64,000 nucleotides of DNA, from the NCBI RefSeq assembly GCF_900188405.1, contig NZ_FZOF01000023.1, positions 1 through 64,000 on the forward strand, read 5' to 3'. The notes under the pieces were generated by a model. It made no database searches, was not told the origin of the DNA, and was given only the letters and a program-made list of their open reading frames with translations. Shown here one piece after another: positions 13,185 to 39,284 of the stretch. A program made the position numbers and the translations under genes. Every line of letters begins with the position of its first letter. Position 1 is the stretch's first letter. The stretch is from Actinacidiphila glaucinigra. GTDB lineage: Bacteria > Actinomycetota > Actinomycetes > Streptomycetales > Streptomycetaceae.

Positions 13185-14117
13185 TCAGCCGCGCACGTCC
13201 GCCGCGAGGGCGTCCAGCGACAGCCGCCACAGCAGCGCGGCCGCGTCCGGGTCCAGCGCGTGGTCGGCCACGCCGCCGGAGGTCCCGGGGATGTGGCGGT
13301 GGGCCTCGGCGCAGTCCTCGAAGTAGCGCCCCGCCACGCGCTCCAGCCCGGGCGCGGTGGCGACGTACACGACCGTGGCGGCCCCCTGCTGCGGGGTCTT
13401 GAAGGTGTGGCCGCCGGACGCGGCGGCGGCGTCCAGGGCCTCGCGGGTGAGGTGACGGGACAGGTTGGTGCCCAGCACCGCCCCGGGGTGCACCGCGTTG
13501 ACGGTCACGCCGTCGGCGGCCCAGCGCCGGCCGGCCTCCACCGCGAAGAGGACGTTGGCGGTCTTGGACTGGGCGTACGCGAGGCCGGCGTCGTAGGGGC
13601 GGTCGCGGAAGTGGACGTCGTCGAAGTGCACCGGGCTGCGCAGGTGGGCGACCGAGCTGAGGGAGACCACGCGGGCGCGGCCCGCGGCGGCGAGCGCCGG
13701 GTGCAGGCGGGTGGCGAGCGCGAAGTGCCCGAGGTGGTTGGTCGCGAACTGCAGCTCCCAGCCCTCGGGCGTGCGCGTCTCGGGGGTCATCATGACCCCG
13801 GCGTTGTTGACGAGGACGTGCAGGGGGCCGTGCCAGGCGGCGGCGAAAGCCGCCACGGAGCGCTGGTCCGCGAGGTCGAGCGGGGCGACCAGCACCCGCC
13901 CGGCGCCGCCGGCCGCGATGCCCGCGGCCGCGCGCTCGCCGGCGGCGGTGTCCCGTACCGCGAGGGTGACCTCGGCGCCGGCGCCGGCCAGGGCGCGGGC
14001 GGTCTCCAGGCCGATGCCGGAGGCCGCACCGGTGACGACGGCGCGGCCTCCGGTGAGGTCGATGCCGCCGACGACCTCGGCGGCGGTGGACTGTGCGGTG
14101 AAGCCGGAGCCGGTCAT
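13185..14117 (-). CDS. short-chain dehydrogenase/reductase
   Basis: A 310-residue NAD(P)-dependent oxidoreductase of the classical/extended-like SDR family (retinol dehydrogenase or WW-domain oxidoreductase type). The cofactor loop TGAASGIG lies near residue 28, VNNAGVM near 108, the catalytic Ser in LSSVAH, and YAQSK with Tyr and Lys near 182-186. Substrate is unknown. The ATG at 14117 is preceded by GAAGG. The downstream side faces the DUF1152 gene, and the upstream side abuts the duplicated transpeptidase fragment. Confidence 0.88.
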   Translation of the reverse strand: MTGSGFTAQSTAAEVVGGIDLTGGRAVVTGAASGIGLETARALAGAGAEVTLAVRDTAAGERAAAGIAAGGAGRVLVAPLDLADQRSVAAFAAAWHGPLHVLVNNAGVMMTPETRTPEGWELQFATNHLGHFALATRLHPALAAAGRARVVSLSSVAHLRSPVHFDDVHFRDRPYDAGLAYAQSKTANVLFAVEAGRRWAADGVTVNAVHPGAVLGTNLSRHLTREALDAAAASGGHTFKTPQQGAATVVYVATAPGLERVAGRYFEDCAEAHRHIPGTSGGVADHALDPDAAALLWRLSLDALAADVRG

Positions 14118-14145
14118 GGCGCTGCCTTCCTCTCGGCGCGGCGGT

Positions 14146-14467
14146 GGTGCCGCCCCCTTCCAGGCAACCACCGCCGGCCGTCCGCGGCGCCCCCGGGCGG
14201 GGGTCAGCGCAGCGCGCTCTTCTGCCGCCACTGGTCCCAGCCCACGTTCCAGTCGCCGAAGCCGTCGTTCGGCGCGACGGTGCCGAAGAACGCGGCGTTC
14301 CAGGGGGCGGCGTGCGCGTACATCCCGGACCAGGTGAGCCGGATCGAGTCGTGGACCGTCTCGTCGTAGGCGTCGCCGAGGCCGACGGTCTCGGAGTTCA
14401 TCCGGACCGTGCCCTCCTTGGCCAGCACCACCGCCGTGCCGCGCCACGAACCGGTGTCCGGTCCGGG
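14146..14467. repeat. tandem partial copy 1 of the transpeptidase 3' region (with 114-bp deletion)
   Basis: This 322-bp segment repeats the sequence starting at 14468 almost base for base, but lacks 114 bp (corresponding to 14604-14717, approximately). GGTGCCGCC occurs at 14146, 14468 and 14904, i.e. at both ends and at the junction, consistent with a tandem duplication by short-homology recombination. A few substitutions separate the copies. Confidence 0.85.
14204..14467 (-). pseudogene. L,D-transpeptidase C-terminal fragment lacking the catalytic Cys region
   Basis: In the transpeptidase frame this fragment encodes the end of the YkuD domain, but an in-frame 38-codon deletion joins FFG directly to TVAPN. 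The lost segment contains the SHGC active-site motif, so the fragment cannot be catalytically active. It also lacks the signal peptide and Ig-like domains. An internal ATG at 14431 (MVLAKEG) could start a 75-residue product, but no good ribosome binding site is seen. Asn has changed to Asp in PNDGF compared with the intact gene, showing some drift. Confidence 0.75.
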
Positions 14468-14903
14468 GGTGCCGCCCCCTTCCAGGCAACCACCGCCGGC
14501 CGTCCGCGGCGCCCCCGGGCGGGGGTCAGCGCAGCGCGCTCTTCTGCCGCCACTGGTCCCAGCCCACGTTCCAGTCGCCGAAGCCGTTGTTCGGCGCGAC
14601 CGTTCCCTTGGCCTCGGACCCCTTGATCTCGAAGGGATCGCCGACCCGGACCTGGGAGTACAGCCAGCCCGCGTCGGCGTCGCTCATCCCGACGCAGCCG
14701 TGGCTGCGGTTGGCCCGGCCGAAGAACGCGGCGTTCCAGGGGGCGGCGTGCGCGTACATCCCGGACCAGGTGAGCCGGATCGAGTCGTGGACCGTCTCGT
14801 CGTAGGCGTCGCCGAGGCCGACGGTCTCGGAGTTCATCCGGACCGTGCCCTCCTTGGCCAGCACCACCGCCGTGCCGCGCCACGAACCGGTGTCCGGTCC
14901 GGG
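14468..14903. repeat. tandem copy 2 (intact 3' part of the transpeptidase gene)
   Basis: This 436-bp unit comprises about 58 bp of intergenic DNA plus the 3' part of the intact L,D-transpeptidase gene. It matches copy 1 apart from the 114-bp deletion there. Confidence 0.85.
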
Positions 14904-15737
14904 GGTGCCGCCCGAGACGGGGACCGTGCGCACCGTCCGGCCGTCGCGCTGCAGGGTGAGCTGCTTGCGGTCGAGGTCGACCTTGACCACCTGCCGGGCG
15001 CCGACGGTGAAGGAGGCCTGGTAGTCGCGGACGAACCAGCCGCCCCGCCCGGAGTCGGTGCCGTCCAGGCGGGCGTCCAGGGTGACCTCGGTGCCCGGCC
15101 GCCAGTACTCCCGGGGCCGCCAGTCGACCCGGTCCCGGCCCGAGTAGTCGGTCAGCCAGCCCCAGGAGCCCTCGGTGTCGTCGGAGGTCGTCACCTTCAG
15201 CTGCCGCTCCACGGCGGCCTTGTCGGTCACGGGGTTGTCGAAGACGAGGGATATCGGCTGGGCGACGCCGACCGTGGTGCCGTCGCCGGGCCGCCAGTCC
15301 ACCTTGTTGACCTTGCGCGCCGCGGCGGTGGTGAAGCTCGACTCGCTCCTGCCGGTCGTGCCGCCCGGGGTGCGGGTACCGGCCTCGACGGTGTACGAGG
15401 CGCCGGGCACGACGTTGCGGTCCGAGGTCCAGGTGCGGCGGTCCGCGGACAGGGTGCCGGTCAGTGCCTTGTCGTGCGGCCCGGCGACGGTGACCGCCGT
15501 GAGGGTGCCGCCCTTCGCGGTGACGCGGACGGGCTCGCCGGCCGTTACCCGCCCGCCGTGCGGGGTGACGGTGACGGTCGCCGCCCGCTCCTTGTGCTGC
15601 TCCGTGTCGCCGGCGGCGTGCGTCGCCGCCGGGGCGCTGCCCGAGCAGGCGGTGAGCACGGCGGACAGCAGGGCGGCCGCGACGGCGGCGGTGCGCAGGC
15701 GGGGCCGGCGTATCGGGCCCACACGTTTCCGGGACAA
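14526..15737 (-). CDS. lipoprotein L,D-transpeptidase (Ig-like + YkuD)
   Basis: A 403-residue peptidoglycan cross-linking enzyme that makes 3-3 cross-links. The lipobox is VLTAC with Cys31. Two Ig-like domains (about 55-140 and 145-245) precede the YkuD catalytic domain (about 247-375), which has the SHGC motif with catalytic Cys348 and upstream MYAHAAPWN. The architecture matches LdtMt2-type enzymes. The start is TTG at 15737, supported by GGAGGT upstream. A deleted partial copy of its 3' end lies immediately downstream. Divergent FemX-like and MurJ genes place it in an envelope-building neighbourhood. Confidence 0.92.
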   Translation of the reverse strand: MSRKRVGPIRRPRLRTAAVAAALLSAVLTACSGSAPAATHAAGDTEQHKERAATVTVTPHGGRVTAGEPVRVTAKGGTLTAVTVAGPHDKALTGTLSADRRTWTSDRNVVPGASYTVEAGTRTPGGTTGRSESSFTTAAARKVNKVDWRPGDGTTVGVAQPISLVFDNPVTDKAAVERQLKVTTSDDTEGSWGWLTDYSGRDRVDWRPREYWRPGTEVTLDARLDGTDSGRGGWFVRDYQASFTVGARQVVKVDLDRKQLTLQRDGRTVRTVPVSGGTPGPDTGSWRGTAVVLAKEGTVRMNSETVGLGDAYDETVHDSIRLTWSGMYAHAAPWNAAFFGRANRSHGCVGMSDADAGWLYSQVRVGDPFEIKGSEAKGTVAPNNGFGDWNVGWDQWRQKSALR

Positions 15738-15952
15738 CGGAGACCTCCGGGAGGGACGGGGAGAGCACGGCCGGGAAACGGCCGGACCCCGGGGACTCTA
15801 GGCCGCGAAAAGCCCTGGTGGAGCGCCTGGGAGCCGTATGACGGCAGCTGGTGGGAAACGGTCATGGTCCGGTCACATTCGCCGCTCGGGGCGGTCACGA
15901 AGGGCTGTGAGCCTTCCGATGTTCCCACCCGACCACACCTCAGGGAGGCGCA

Positions 15953-17149
15953 GTGTCGGCACTGCTCGTGACGGCGGGCTGCGGCCCCCGGCAGGCCTGG
16001 CTCGGACCGGTCAGCGCGGAGACGTACCGCTCGTTCCTGGCGTCCCGGACGGGTTCGGCGCTCGGCCCGAGCTTCCTCCAGTGCCCGTCGTGGGCGCTGG
16101 TGAAGCCGGGCTGGCGGCCCCGGTTGCTCGGCTGGGGCACCGGGGACGACTCCGGGCGCGGTGAGCTGCGCGGCGTCGCGCTGGTGCTGCTGCGGCAGTT
16201 CCCCGGGACGCGGAAGTCCTTCGCCTACCTGCCCGAGGGGCCGGTCGCCGACTGGTCGGACCCCGGCATCGACGCCTGGCTGACGCCGCTCCTGCGCCAC
16301 CTGCGCGGACTCGGTGCCTTCGCCGTGCGCATCGGCCCCTCGCCCGCCCACCGCCGCTGGGACGCCGCCGCGCTGAAGTCCGCGACCGGTCTCGGCCGGC
16401 GCCTGTCCGACGTCCTGGCGTGCGAGGTCGACCCGCTCGGCACGGTCGTGGCCGAGCGGCTGCGGGCCCGCGGCTGGCGGCGCTGCGGCGGCGACGGGCC
16501 GGACGGCGGCGGGGACGCGGACGCCCAGCCCCGCCACGTCTTCCGGGTCCCGCTGGCCGGCCGCAGCGCCGAGGACCTGTGGTCGGGACTCAACCAGGAG
16601 TGGCGCCGCAACATACGGAAGGCCCGGAAGTCGGGCGTCGAGGTGACCGTGGGCGGCGCGGCCGACCTCCCCGAGTTCTTCCGTCTGCTGCGGATCACCG
16701 AGGAGCGCGACGGCTTCCGGCTGGGCCGCTCGCTGGAGTACTACCAGCGCCAGTACGCGGCCCTCAACGCCGAGCAGCCGGGCCGGATGAAGCTCTACCT
16801 CGCCCGCCACGAGGGCGAGGTGCTCGCCGCCCACACGATGATCACCGTGGGCCGGAGGGCCTGGTACCAGACCGGCGCCTCGGCGGACCACCGCCGCGAG
16901 GTCCGCCCCTCCAACGCCCTGCAGTGGCGGATGCTGCAGGACGCCCACCAACAGGGCGCACTGGAGTACGACATGCGCGGGGTACCCTCCACACTCGACC
17001 CGGAGGACCGGGCGTTCGGTCTCACGCGATGGAAGCTCGGAACCGGCGGGCAGGTCGTCGAGACCCTGGGGGAATGGGAGACGGCCTTGGACGGCACCGC
17101 CAACCACACGCTCTACCGGGCCTTCCAGGTCTACCTGGCACGCCGGTGA
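15953..17149 (+). CDS. FemAB/FemX-family aminoacyltransferase (peptidoglycan bridge formation)
   Basis: A 398-residue protein of the Fem family, which adds bridge amino acids to lipid II from aminoacyl-tRNA in the cytoplasm. Two GNAT-like subdomains are visible. The second carries WRRNIRKARKSGVEV, then a FFRLLRITEERDGF region and a conserved YDMRGVPSTLDPEDRAFGLTRWK-like end that is typical of Streptomyces FemX proteins. The GTG start has CAGGGAGG 5-6 nt upstream. The stop overlaps the MurJ start by GTGA. In Streptomyces FemX adds the glycine bridge, so pairing with a lipid II flippase is sensible. Confidence 0.88.
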   Translation: MSALLVTAGCGPRQAWLGPVSAETYRSFLASRTGSALGPSFLQCPSWALVKPGWRPRLLGWGTGDDSGRGELRGVALVLLRQFPGTRKSFAYLPEGPVADWSDPGIDAWLTPLLRHLRGLGAFAVRIGPSPAHRRWDAAALKSATGLGRRLSDVLACEVDPLGTVVAERLRARGWRRCGGDGPDGGGDADAQPRHVFRVPLAGRSAEDLWSGLNQEWRRNIRKARKSGVEVTVGGAADLPEFFRLLRITEERDGFRLGRSLEYYQRQYAALNAEQPGRMKLYLARHEGEVLAAHTMITVGRRAWYQTGASADHRREVRPSNALQWRMLQDAHQQGALEYDMRGVPSTLDPEDRAFGLTRWKLGTGGQVVETLGEWETALDGTANHTLYRAFQVYLARR

Positions 17150-18825
17150 GCGCCCCCGCGGCGGCCCGGCCGGCCGACGGGAAGGCCGCCCCGGCCGGGG
17201 CGGCAGCCACCGGCTCGGTGCTGCGCAGCGGCGCCCTCATGGCGGCGGGTTCGGTGGTCTCCCGCGCGACCGGCTTCGTACGGTCCGCGACCGTCGCCGC
17301 GGCGCTCGGCGTCGGCCTGGCCGCCGACGGCTACTCGGTCGGCAACTCGGTGCCCACGATCGTCTACATGCTGCTGCTGGGCGGCGCGCTCAACGCGGTG
17401 TTCGTACCCGAACTGGTGCGGGCCGCCAAGGAGCACGAGGACGGCGGCGCCGCCTACACCGACCGGCTGCTGACCGTGTGCACCGTCGCGCTGCTGCTGA
17501 TCACGACGGCGGCCGTGCTGGCCGCGCCCGCGATCGTGGCCGCGTACACCGGCTACACCGGGGCGCAGGCGGCGACGACGGTGGCCTTCGCGCGCTCCTG
17601 CCTGCCGCAGATCCTCTTCCTCGGCCTGTTCACGCTGCTCGGCCAAGTCCTGAACGCCCGCGGCCGGTTCGGCGCGATGATGTGGACGCCCGTCCTCAAC
17701 AACCTGGTCGTCATCGCCGTCTTCGGCCTCTACCTGGCCACGGCCGGCACCGGCGGCGGGCTGACCTCCGGCGAGACCGCGCTGCTCGGCTGGGGCACCA
17801 CGGCCGGCATCGCGGTGCAGGCGCTGGCGCTGGTGCCGTCACTGCGGGCGGCGCGCTTCCGCTGGCGGCCGCGGTTCGACTGGCGGGGCAGCGGGCTGTC
17901 CCGGCCGCTGCGCTCCGCCGGGTGGCTGGTGCTGCTGGTGCTCACCAACCAGGTCGCCTACTGGGTGGTGACCCGGCTCGCCACCTCCGCCGGACAGCGC
18001 GCCGCGGCCCTCGGCATCGACGGCGGCGCCGGCTTCACCGCGTACAACAACGCCTATCTGCTGTGGGCCGTACCGCACGGCATCGTGACGGTCTCGCTGG
18101 TCACCGCCCTGCTGCCGCGGATGAGCGCGGCGGCGGCCGACGGCGACCCCGCGCGGGTGCGCCGCGACGTCTCGTACGCGCTGCGCAGCAGCTCCGCGCT
18201 GGTGGTGCCCGCCGCGTGCGCGCTGCTGGCGCTCGCCGGGCCGGCGATGGCGCTGGTCTTCGAGCACGGCAGGACCGACGCCGCCGACGTCGCGGTCATG
18301 GCGAACGCGCTGGTGGCCTTCGCCCCCGGTCTCGTCGCCTTCTCCGGGCAGTACGTGCTGTCGCGCACCTTCTACGCGCTCGGCGACACCCGCACCCCGT
18401 TCCTGCTCAACCTGGTGATCTCCGGGCTCAACGCGGGCCTGTCCGTCACCGCCTACCTGCTGCTGCCCGCGCGCTGGGCGGTCACCGGCATGGCCGGGGC
18501 GTACTCGGTGGCGCTCTTCGCGGGTTGGGCGGTCACCGCGCACGTGCTGGGCCGCAGGCTGGCGGCGCCGGACGGCGGTCGCGGGCCGTGGCGCTCGCCG
18601 ACCGCGGGCGCGCTGGCCCGGCTGCTGCTCACCGCGGTGCCCGCCGCGGCCCTGGGCCGGACGACGGCGGACCTCGCCGCGGACCTCGGACCGCTCGCCG
18701 CGGCGGTGGCCGGGGCGGCCGTCGTCGTACTGGTCTTCGCGGCCGCGGCCCGCCCGCTGCGGCTGACCGAGGTCGAGGCCGCCCAGCGGGCGCTGCTCGG
18801 CAAACTGCGGCGCGGTGCGCGATGA
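17146..18825 (+). CDS. murJ: MurJ-like lipid II flippase (MOP superfamily)
   Basis: A 559-residue integral membrane protein with about 14 hydrophobic helices. The N-terminal signature SVVSRATGFVRSATVAAALG and the internal MLLLGGALNAVFVPELVR are characteristic of MviN/MurJ proteins, which flip lipid II across the membrane. The second half has the related FSGQYVLSRTFYALGDTRTP motif. Translation starts at a GTG overlapping the FemX stop, so the two are coupled. Actinomycetes often encode more than one MurJ homologue, so this copy may not be the essential one. The response regulator follows after only 17 bp. Confidence 0.9.
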   Translation: MSAPAAARPADGKAAPAGAAATGSVLRSGALMAAGSVVSRATGFVRSATVAAALGVGLAADGYSVGNSVPTIVYMLLLGGALNAVFVPELVRAAKEHEDGGAAYTDRLLTVCTVALLLITTAAVLAAPAIVAAYTGYTGAQAATTVAFARSCLPQILFLGLFTLLGQVLNARGRFGAMMWTPVLNNLVVIAVFGLYLATAGTGGGLTSGETALLGWGTTAGIAVQALALVPSLRAARFRWRPRFDWRGSGLSRPLRSAGWLVLLVLTNQVAYWVVTRLATSAGQRAAALGIDGGAGFTAYNNAYLLWAVPHGIVTVSLVTALLPRMSAAAADGDPARVRRDVSYALRSSSALVVPAACALLALAGPAMALVFEHGRTDAADVAVMANALVAFAPGLVAFSGQYVLSRTFYALGDTRTPFLLNLVISGLNAGLSVTAYLLLPARWAVTGMAGAYSVALFAGWAVTAHVLGRRLAAPDGGRGPWRSPTAGALARLLLTAVPAAALGRTTADLAADLGPLAAAVAGAAVVVLVFAAAARPLRLTEVEAAQRALLGKLRRGAR

Positions 18826-37589: not shown

Positions 37590-39284
37590 TTGCGCACCCG
37601 CCACCTCGCGGGCGGGACGGCTCTGTCCGTCCTGCTCGCCACCGCATCCCTGCTCGGGGTCACGGCAACGCCGGCCGCGGCCGACGCCGCCCCGTCGGCC
37701 ACCTCCTCCGAGGCGCAGCCCACGCTGCATGCCCTGGACGACCCGGCCCAGGCCGCGACCACGCTCACCGTGAACGTCCCCGCGACGGCCGTGCCCGGCG
37801 CCGAGGTCACGATCACCGGCACCCTCGGCTCGGCCGAGCCCTTCGCGGCCGGCACCGAGGTCACCGTCACCCGCACGGACCCGGCCGACACGGCCGGCAC
37901 CCCGCTGGGCACCGCGGCCGTCGCCGAGGACGGCACCTTCCAGCTCAAGGACACCCCGGCCGCCCAGGGCAACAACACCTACTGGGTCAGCTACGCCGGC
38001 GACGCGACCCACGCCGCCGCCGCCGCAACGGGCACCGTCACCGTCGCCCGGGCCTCGACCACCCTCAACGTGTCCGCCCCGGAGACGGCCCTGCCCGGCG
38101 CCGAGGTCACCATCAGCGGCTCCCTCGGCTCCACCGAGGACTACGCGCCGGGCACCACGGTCGCCATCACCCGCACGGACAGCCACGGAGGGACCGGCAC
38201 CCCGCTGGGTACCGCGACCATCGGCGAGCACAACATCTTCCAGCTCAAGGACACCCCCGCTGTCCAGGGCGACAACACCTACACGGTCAGCTACGCGGGC
38301 GACGCGACCCACACCGCCGCCACCGCCAAGAGGACCGTCAACGTCACCCGGGCCGCGACCACGCTCACCGTGAACGCCCCCGCCACCGCCAAGCGGGCCA
38401 CGAAGCTCACGGTCACCGGCAAGCTCACGGCCGCCGCGCCCTTCCCGGCCGGCACCAAGGTCACGGTGACCCGGATCGACCTCACCACCCCGAAGGGCAA
38501 GTCCCTCGGCACCAAGACGGTCGCCTCCAACGGGACGTTCAGCTTCACGGACACCCCGTACACGGGCGGCAACGTCACCTACTCCGTGCACTACTCGGGC
38601 GACGCGACGCACACCGCCGCCCTGGGCAAGGACACGGTCGCGGTCTCCCGGGCGGCCACCTCGGTCAGCATCAAGACGAACCACTCGACCTACTCCTGGG
38701 GTTCGACGGCCACCGTCACCGGCCACCTCGGCAAGACCGGCAAGAGCCGCGTGGTGTCGATCTACTCCAAGGCGGCGGACGGCACGAAGAAGCTGGTGAA
38801 GACCGGCACGGTCAACAGCTCCGGCGACTTCAAGGTGAGCTACAAGCTCTACCGGAACACCACCTTCTGGGCGTCGTTCGGCGGCGACTTCTACTCGGCG
38901 CCGAAGTCCGTGTCGCGCTCGGTCGGCACCCGGATCAAGGTCTCCACGTCCGTCGCGCGGCACTACAAGACGGGCAAGATCGGCTCGACCACGTACTACT
39001 GGTTCCACAAGAACACCGACCCGGTGTTCACCACGAGCATGAGCTACTACAAGAACCGCAAGCAGCGGTTCGAGCTGCAGGTCTACTACCAGGGCAAGTG
39101 GTACTCGGCCGGCAGCGAGTACTTCTGGCTCGCCACCAACGGGAAGTCGGCCGTGCAGCTCGAGGCCCCCGGTGAGTCCGGCATCCGCGCCCGCATGCGG
39201 TCCACGTACGTCAAGGGCTCCTCGGGCGACTCCGTGAACACCACGACCTACGGCCCCTGGAAGTACATGTACTTCACCAAGTGA
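37590..39284 (+). CDS. secreted Ig-like repeat protein
   Basis: A 564-residue exported protein. A signal peptide (about 1-33, ending ATPAAA) precedes four related beta-sandwich repeats at about 55-145, 147-245, 247-345 and 347-435. Each begins like ATTLTVNVPATAVPGAEVTI and ends like YWVSYAGDATH. The C-terminal part (about 440-564) is Tyr-, Trp- and Lys-rich (STTYYWFHKNTDP, LQVYYQGKWYSAGS) and probably binds a surface ligand or polymer. The TTG start has GGGGGGAA upstream. It is probably an adhesin-like or matrix protein. A 21-bp terminator hairpin follows. Confidence 0.82.
   Translation: MRTRHLAGGTALSVLLATASLLGVTATPAAADAAPSATSSEAQPTLHALDDPAQAATTLTVNVPATAVPGAEVTITGTLGSAEPFAAGTEVTVTRTDPADTAGTPLGTAAVAEDGTFQLKDTPAAQGNNTYWVSYAGDATHAAAAATGTVTVARASTTLNVSAPETALPGAEVTISGSLGSTEDYAPGTTVAITRTDSHGGTGTPLGTATIGEHNIFQLKDTPAVQGDNTYTVSYAGDATHTAATAKRTVNVTRAATTLTVNAPATAKRATKLTVTGKLTAAAPFPAGTKVTVTRIDLTTPKGKSLGTKTVASNGTFSFTDTPYTGGNVTYSVHYSGDATHTAALGKDTVAVSRAATSVSIKTNHSTYSWGSTATVTGHLGKTGKSRVVSIYSKAADGTKKLVKTGTVNSSGDFKVSYKLYRNTTFWASFGGDFYSAPKSVSRSVGTRIKVSTSVARHYKTGKIGSTTYYWFHKNTDPVFTTSMSYYKNRKQRFELQVYYQGKWYSAGSEYFWLATNGKSAVQLEAPGESGIRARMRSTYVKGSSGDSVNTTTYGPWKYMYFTK

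Follow-up and report, generated by a model that had tools for sequence, protein, structure and literature searches.

The 3' end of an L,D-transpeptidase gene in the window (the whole 64,000-nucleotide stretch of DNA analysed here) is repeated head-to-tail directly downstream of the intact gene, and this second copy lacks an internal segment of 114 nt. We regard it as very probable that the copy is real, that it records a recent and quite ordinary partial tandem duplication combined with a deletion, and that it is most likely a neutral relic. The features on which the argument turns are listed here by their coordinates in the window.

13185 to 14117, minus strand: gene for an SDR-family oxidoreductase directly downstream of the copy, with its start and ribosome site intact
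14146 to 14477, minus strand: partial tandem copy of the 3' end of the parent gene (tail of the coding sequence, stop codon and 3' spacer), from which 114 nt are missing internally
14146 to 14155, plus strand: outer short repeat GGTGCCGCCC, at the SDR-side end of the duplicated unit
14204 to 14431, minus strand: 75-aa open frame in the copy, whose GTG start is an internal valine codon of the parent
14281 to 14282, no strand assigned: join left in the copy by the 114-nt deletion, adjoined by the substitutions at 14266 and 14279
14468 to 14477, plus strand: middle GGTGCCGCCC, at the boundary of copy and parent
14526 to 15737, minus strand: intact parent L,D-transpeptidase gene (403 aa, TTG start)
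14904 to 14913, plus strand: outer short repeat GGTGCCGCCC, within the parent coding sequence

The parent gene codes for a YkuD-type L,D-transpeptidase, as is evident from its YkuD domain (PF03734, residues 249-371; 65.7 bits against a cutoff of 23.4) and from the SHGC motif at codons 345-348, which we take to be the active-site cysteine motif of these enzymes. It further displays a Big_10 domain (PF17964 in Pfam, residues 64-228, 176 bits) and a signal-like N-terminal stretch that was read by eye. The downstream gene at 13185-14117 matches oxidoreductase and SDR models of NCBIfam, the best of them below their curated cut-offs. Adjoining the transpeptidase gene is a FemX-like gene (15953-17149, plus strand), whose NCBIfam match lies far under the cut-off, and the region also holds a frame that, by eye, we assume to be a MurJ-like flippase. 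The combination of transpeptidase, FemX-like and MurJ-like genes suggests that positions 14526-18825 of the window constitute a cell-wall gene neighbourhood.

The copy derives from the last ~380 coding bases of the parent together with its 3' spacer, and the corresponding segment of the parent is 14468-14913. The match between them (196 nt at 100% and 143 nt at 97%) is far beyond chance. Since the offset between copy and parent shifts from 322 nt up to position 14281 to 436 nt past it, the copy is without exactly 114 nt, or 38 codons, with those for SHGC among them. With the breakpoint placed where it fits best (after 14281), just two substitutions, one at 14266 and one at 14279, separate copy and parent over 332 nt, every other position being identical, the deletion aside; one of the two is silent (ACG/ACC), and the other is missense and turns N into D (AAC/GAC). 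Whether the parent's GGA, as against GGC at the junction, counts as a third difference hinges on where the breakpoint is placed. Thus far our results bear out the first-pass annotation, which had described a tandem partial copy directly downstream, bounded by the same sequence at each end, lacking exactly 38 codons in frame and differing by a few bases. Its description of this as a loss confined to the active site is nevertheless misleading, because codons 1 to about 277 are gone as well, and with them the N-terminus, the whole of Big_10 and the start of YkuD.

The boundaries of the unit point to how it arose. The sequence GGTGCCGCC is found at 14146, 14468 and 14904, and the run common to the two outer ends is exactly 10 nt, GGTGCCGCCC. 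The order repeat-unit-repeat-unit-repeat is that expected when two short direct repeats give rise to a head-to-tail duplication, and a head-to-tail copy whose outer ends have a short direct repeat in common is a hallmark by which we recognise short-homology tandem duplication. Breakpoint runs of at least 10 nt occurred in only 0.011% of 400,000 random position pairs drawn 300-1200 nt apart in the window.

Another such hallmark, a single copy at the same site in a close relative, is provided by the closest genome compared (G001, ~93% identical), where the alignment of the syntenic site (L009) contains one transpeptidase copy and the stop codon of the transpeptidase gene is separated from the SDR start by 85 nt, as against 408 nt here. 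The spacer copy of the short repeat reads GGTGCCACC in G001 (in the orientation used here), which is one base off. Of 435 aligned sites in the tail of the parent, 20 differ from G001, as against only 2 of 332 between parent and copy, and the duplication is therefore much younger than the split from G001, barring conversion between the copies. On a broader scale, the tail region was matched at E<=1e-30 in two of the 35 genomes of the genus, namely the window's own genome (G000) and G001, with the copy confined to the former; and among 41 genomes (G000 and 40 relatives) G001 is the only other one with a long match of >68% identity to the transpeptidase gene. The tail was matched in 118 of 121 loci, 80 of the 121 being named Streptomyces records, mostly at 60-73% protein identity. 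Two tails were seen in four loci (L001, L118, L120 and L121), all of which represent one place, the window's locus, and the clipped copy was found in no other genome searched. The change would accordingly be read as a gain here rather than a loss in G001, given one close outgroup and the single-tail state of the more distant loci. Separately, the start of the transpeptidase gene in G001 (L009:1471-1530) shows a short tandem duplication of its own in the first codons, with KRVGPIR repeated; in different lineages, then, both ends of this gene have undergone tandem duplication.

In the present-day sequence there is no microhomology (0 nt) between the two sides of the junction of the internal deletion; a 3-nt overlap (GGC) appears if the parent's GGA was formerly GGC. 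That codon is indeed GGC, not GGA, in G001 and in one named record (L038), as seen in a strict-pattern comparison fitted by nine rows from five distinct places (the window, G001, L013, L038 and L039). As runs of at least 3 nt are present at 9% of random breakpoint pairs, the GGC overlap counts for little. Measured from the first base past the junction, the two substitutions stand at distances of 16 nt (14266) and 3 nt (14279). The probability that two random changes would both fall inside a span as wide as this cluster is about 0.011, and for three changes about 0.001; these are post hoc figures from a test whose centre was 14265 and not the true junction at 14281, and they depend on interval width alone. 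Such clustering is unexplained by simple slippage followed by neutral decay. It would fit a mutagenic join or a template switch, and it could stem from a sequencing problem. We rejected a patch donated by gene conversion, as the 24-nt junction sequence of the copy matches only the parent genome-wide at <=3 mismatches, and also an exchange with a diverged allele spanning the entire 3' end, as the spacers of both copies are identical to each other yet differ clearly from that of G001.

What the deletion removed calls for no special account. Among the 266 deletions of 114 nt that are possible in the tail, 125 (47%) touch SHGC and 103 (39%) remove all of it, and by simple arithmetic the frame survives for every third deletion length. 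With such figures the loss of SHGC is unremarkable, and the earlier characterisation of the event as a precise loss of the catalytic core over-reads it.

Considering these observations together, we posit a recent, lineage-specific event of illegitimate recombination (replication slippage or template switching) involving two 10-nt copies of GGTGCCGCCC, of which one would have lain in the L,D-transpeptidase coding sequence and the other in the 3' spacer. During or after this duplication, a deletion of 114 nt, joined at 0 nt (or at 3 nt, GGC, should G001 have kept the ancestral base), would have taken out the SHGC-coding part and left a few bases altered next to the junction. The resulting copy would be an unexpressed and neutral pseudogene fragment, with the parent and SDR genes staying intact; it is because both of these genes are intact that we consider the copy most likely to be such a fragment.

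Neither the YkuD domain nor the SHGC motif is present in 14146-14477 (from Pfam on the 75-aa frame and from the deletion of SHGC, respectively), and the frame has no Pfam match at E<=0.001 and no NCBIfam match. It also lacks Big_10 and, as judged by eye, a signal-like N-terminal stretch. Consensus scans recovered no match to a sigma-70-type promoter in 14000-15000 and no terminator or promoter within the copy, which has no unusual fold. The predicted ribosome-site pairing of the 75-aa frame (-2.7 kcal/mol) is the weakest of three, the SDR and transpeptidase genes having -6.3 and -10.7 kcal/mol. The G+C content here is 75%, and long open frames are common at such composition.

Of the alternatives, the one that survives best, although we think it unlikely, is an artefact of assembly or library construction, whereby a chimeric molecule or a mis-joined repeat would have given rise to a copy absent from the chromosome itself. 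The assembly is a draft of 80 contigs, the copy is missing from its sole close relative, G001, and the differences between copy and parent sit at the junction alone; moreover, amplification chimeras look much alike, with short-homology joins and local errors at the junction. Against this, the copy lies 14 kb inside a 155-kb contig and is not a plain repeat, in that it combines a clean 114-nt deletion with two base changes, which are seldom invented by an assembler.

Local direct repeats (>=70 nt long, >=85% identical, <3 kb apart) were also sought in 1,255,578 bases of G000 (13% of the genome, made up of the window and further stretches) and in 1,200,000 bases of G001. This uncovered seven pairs in the G000 sample, two of them at the transpeptidase locus, and two pairs in that of G001; a general flood of local duplications in the G000 assembly was discarded as an explanation, the difference between the genomes being too small to mean anything. 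Pairs of at least 95% identity were absent from the 1,200,000-base G001 sample, and in that of G000 they comprise the transpeptidase locus, L141:249-640 and a tandem tRNA-Asn pair (L130). At L141:249-640 (contig C75 of G000, about 280249-280640) the end of a gene, presumably pterin-dehydratase-like, is duplicated together with its spacer at 96.7% over 152 nt. The matching G001 site, which falls outside the G001 sample, has its own, different spacer tandem repeats by eye. Partial duplication of a gene end is not unique, then, even within the 13% of the genome sampled. The tRNA-Asn (gtt) genes (L130:15607-15767, also contig C75) are identical in sequence and 87 nt apart, and the region around them also matches G001 at 95% over 1,188 nt; theirs is an ordinary arrangement. 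Elsewhere in the window, at 37747-38646, there are three head-to-tail units of 300 nt, the second and third 81% and 71% identical to the first, which are probably repeated protein domains.

It is quite improbable that the duplication has a regulatory effect, by which the doubled spacer between the transpeptidase and SDR genes, with its G+C-rich stem (CCCCCGCCCGGGGG), would alter read-through from the one into the other. The spacer with the stem does now occur twice between the genes, whose distance has grown from the 85 nt of G001 to 408 nt. However, these spacers fold no better than shuffled sequences (z of 0.99 and 0.32), no terminator-like site was found in them, and the original order of the sequence is kept from the SDR start back to 14281. 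We give almost no credence to a functional decoy, namely a translated 75-residue protein that would keep substrate-binding parts without catalysis and modulate cell-wall cross-linking, or to the scarcely credible variant in which read-through from the transpeptidase promoter would yield a 75-residue fragment, devoid of catalysis, by which the parent enzyme or its substrate would be hindered or tuned: the frame of 75 codons and its stop are intact and the changes are limited to one silent and one missense, but a frame is kept one time in three anyway and stays open readily at this G+C content, and the fragment has no domain match, no signal-like N-terminus, no Big_10, no sigma-70-type promoter match, the poorest ribosome-site pairing and no counterpart in any other genome searched.

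Among the three readings put forward in the first-pass annotation, the recombination relic is hence the best supported, through the single tail at the syntenic site of G001, the 10-nt outer repeat and the lack of promoter-like and domain matches alongside weak ribosome-site pairing; the decoy is not upheld, and the artefact is the less likely, the copy not being a plain repeat. As a neutral relic the locus carries little weight alone and is an ordinary scar. It does, however, furnish a clean and young case of short direct repeats making a partial gene copy in a high-G+C actinomycete, for which a sister genome, G001, displays both a single copy and the disrupted form of the repeat. Students of mutagenic end joining or template switching may find the base changes clustered at the deletion junction of interest. 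Literature matches listed for Streptomyces 3-3 cross-link transpeptidases, partial tandem duplications and short-repeat recombination included nothing on this locus, and we make no claim that it is unpublished.

Finally, the locus can be set beside known systems. The parent belongs with the streptomycete YkuD L,D-transpeptidases (Big_10 plus YkuD) by its domains and SHGC, whereas the copy is left without a recognisable domain or motif of that family. As to mechanism, Touzain et al. (2010; PMC2884548) present illegitimate recombination between short repeats as a common origin of small variable segments: in three bacterial species, direct repeats, mostly shorter than 30 nt, flank 10-18% of such segments, and replication slippage or short-homology illegitimate recombination is named as the likely cause. 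Like those segments, the present one has end repeats of a few nucleotides, too short for RecA-dependent recombination, and represents a short gain or loss between close relatives. Unlike them, it is a tandem gain accompanied by an internal deletion, and it lies in a streptomycete-like genome; in that study, on E. coli, S. aureus and S. pyogenes, deletions between repeats dominate short-repeat events. Work on amplification in E. coli (PMC3161906) reports microhomology at 40 of 40 sequenced junctions and reads complex events as repeated template switches. Our locus resembles such microhomology-mediated template switching (MMBIR, as in E. coli lac amplification) in its junction microhomology and in having more than one novel junction; it departs from it in scale and form, as the events described there are mostly of kilobase size and involve amplification and inversion, while the spans here measure 758 and 114 nt and an origin in replication is a supposition. 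The present case works like the events described in PMC2884548 and PMC3161906 and may have engaged the same enzymes.
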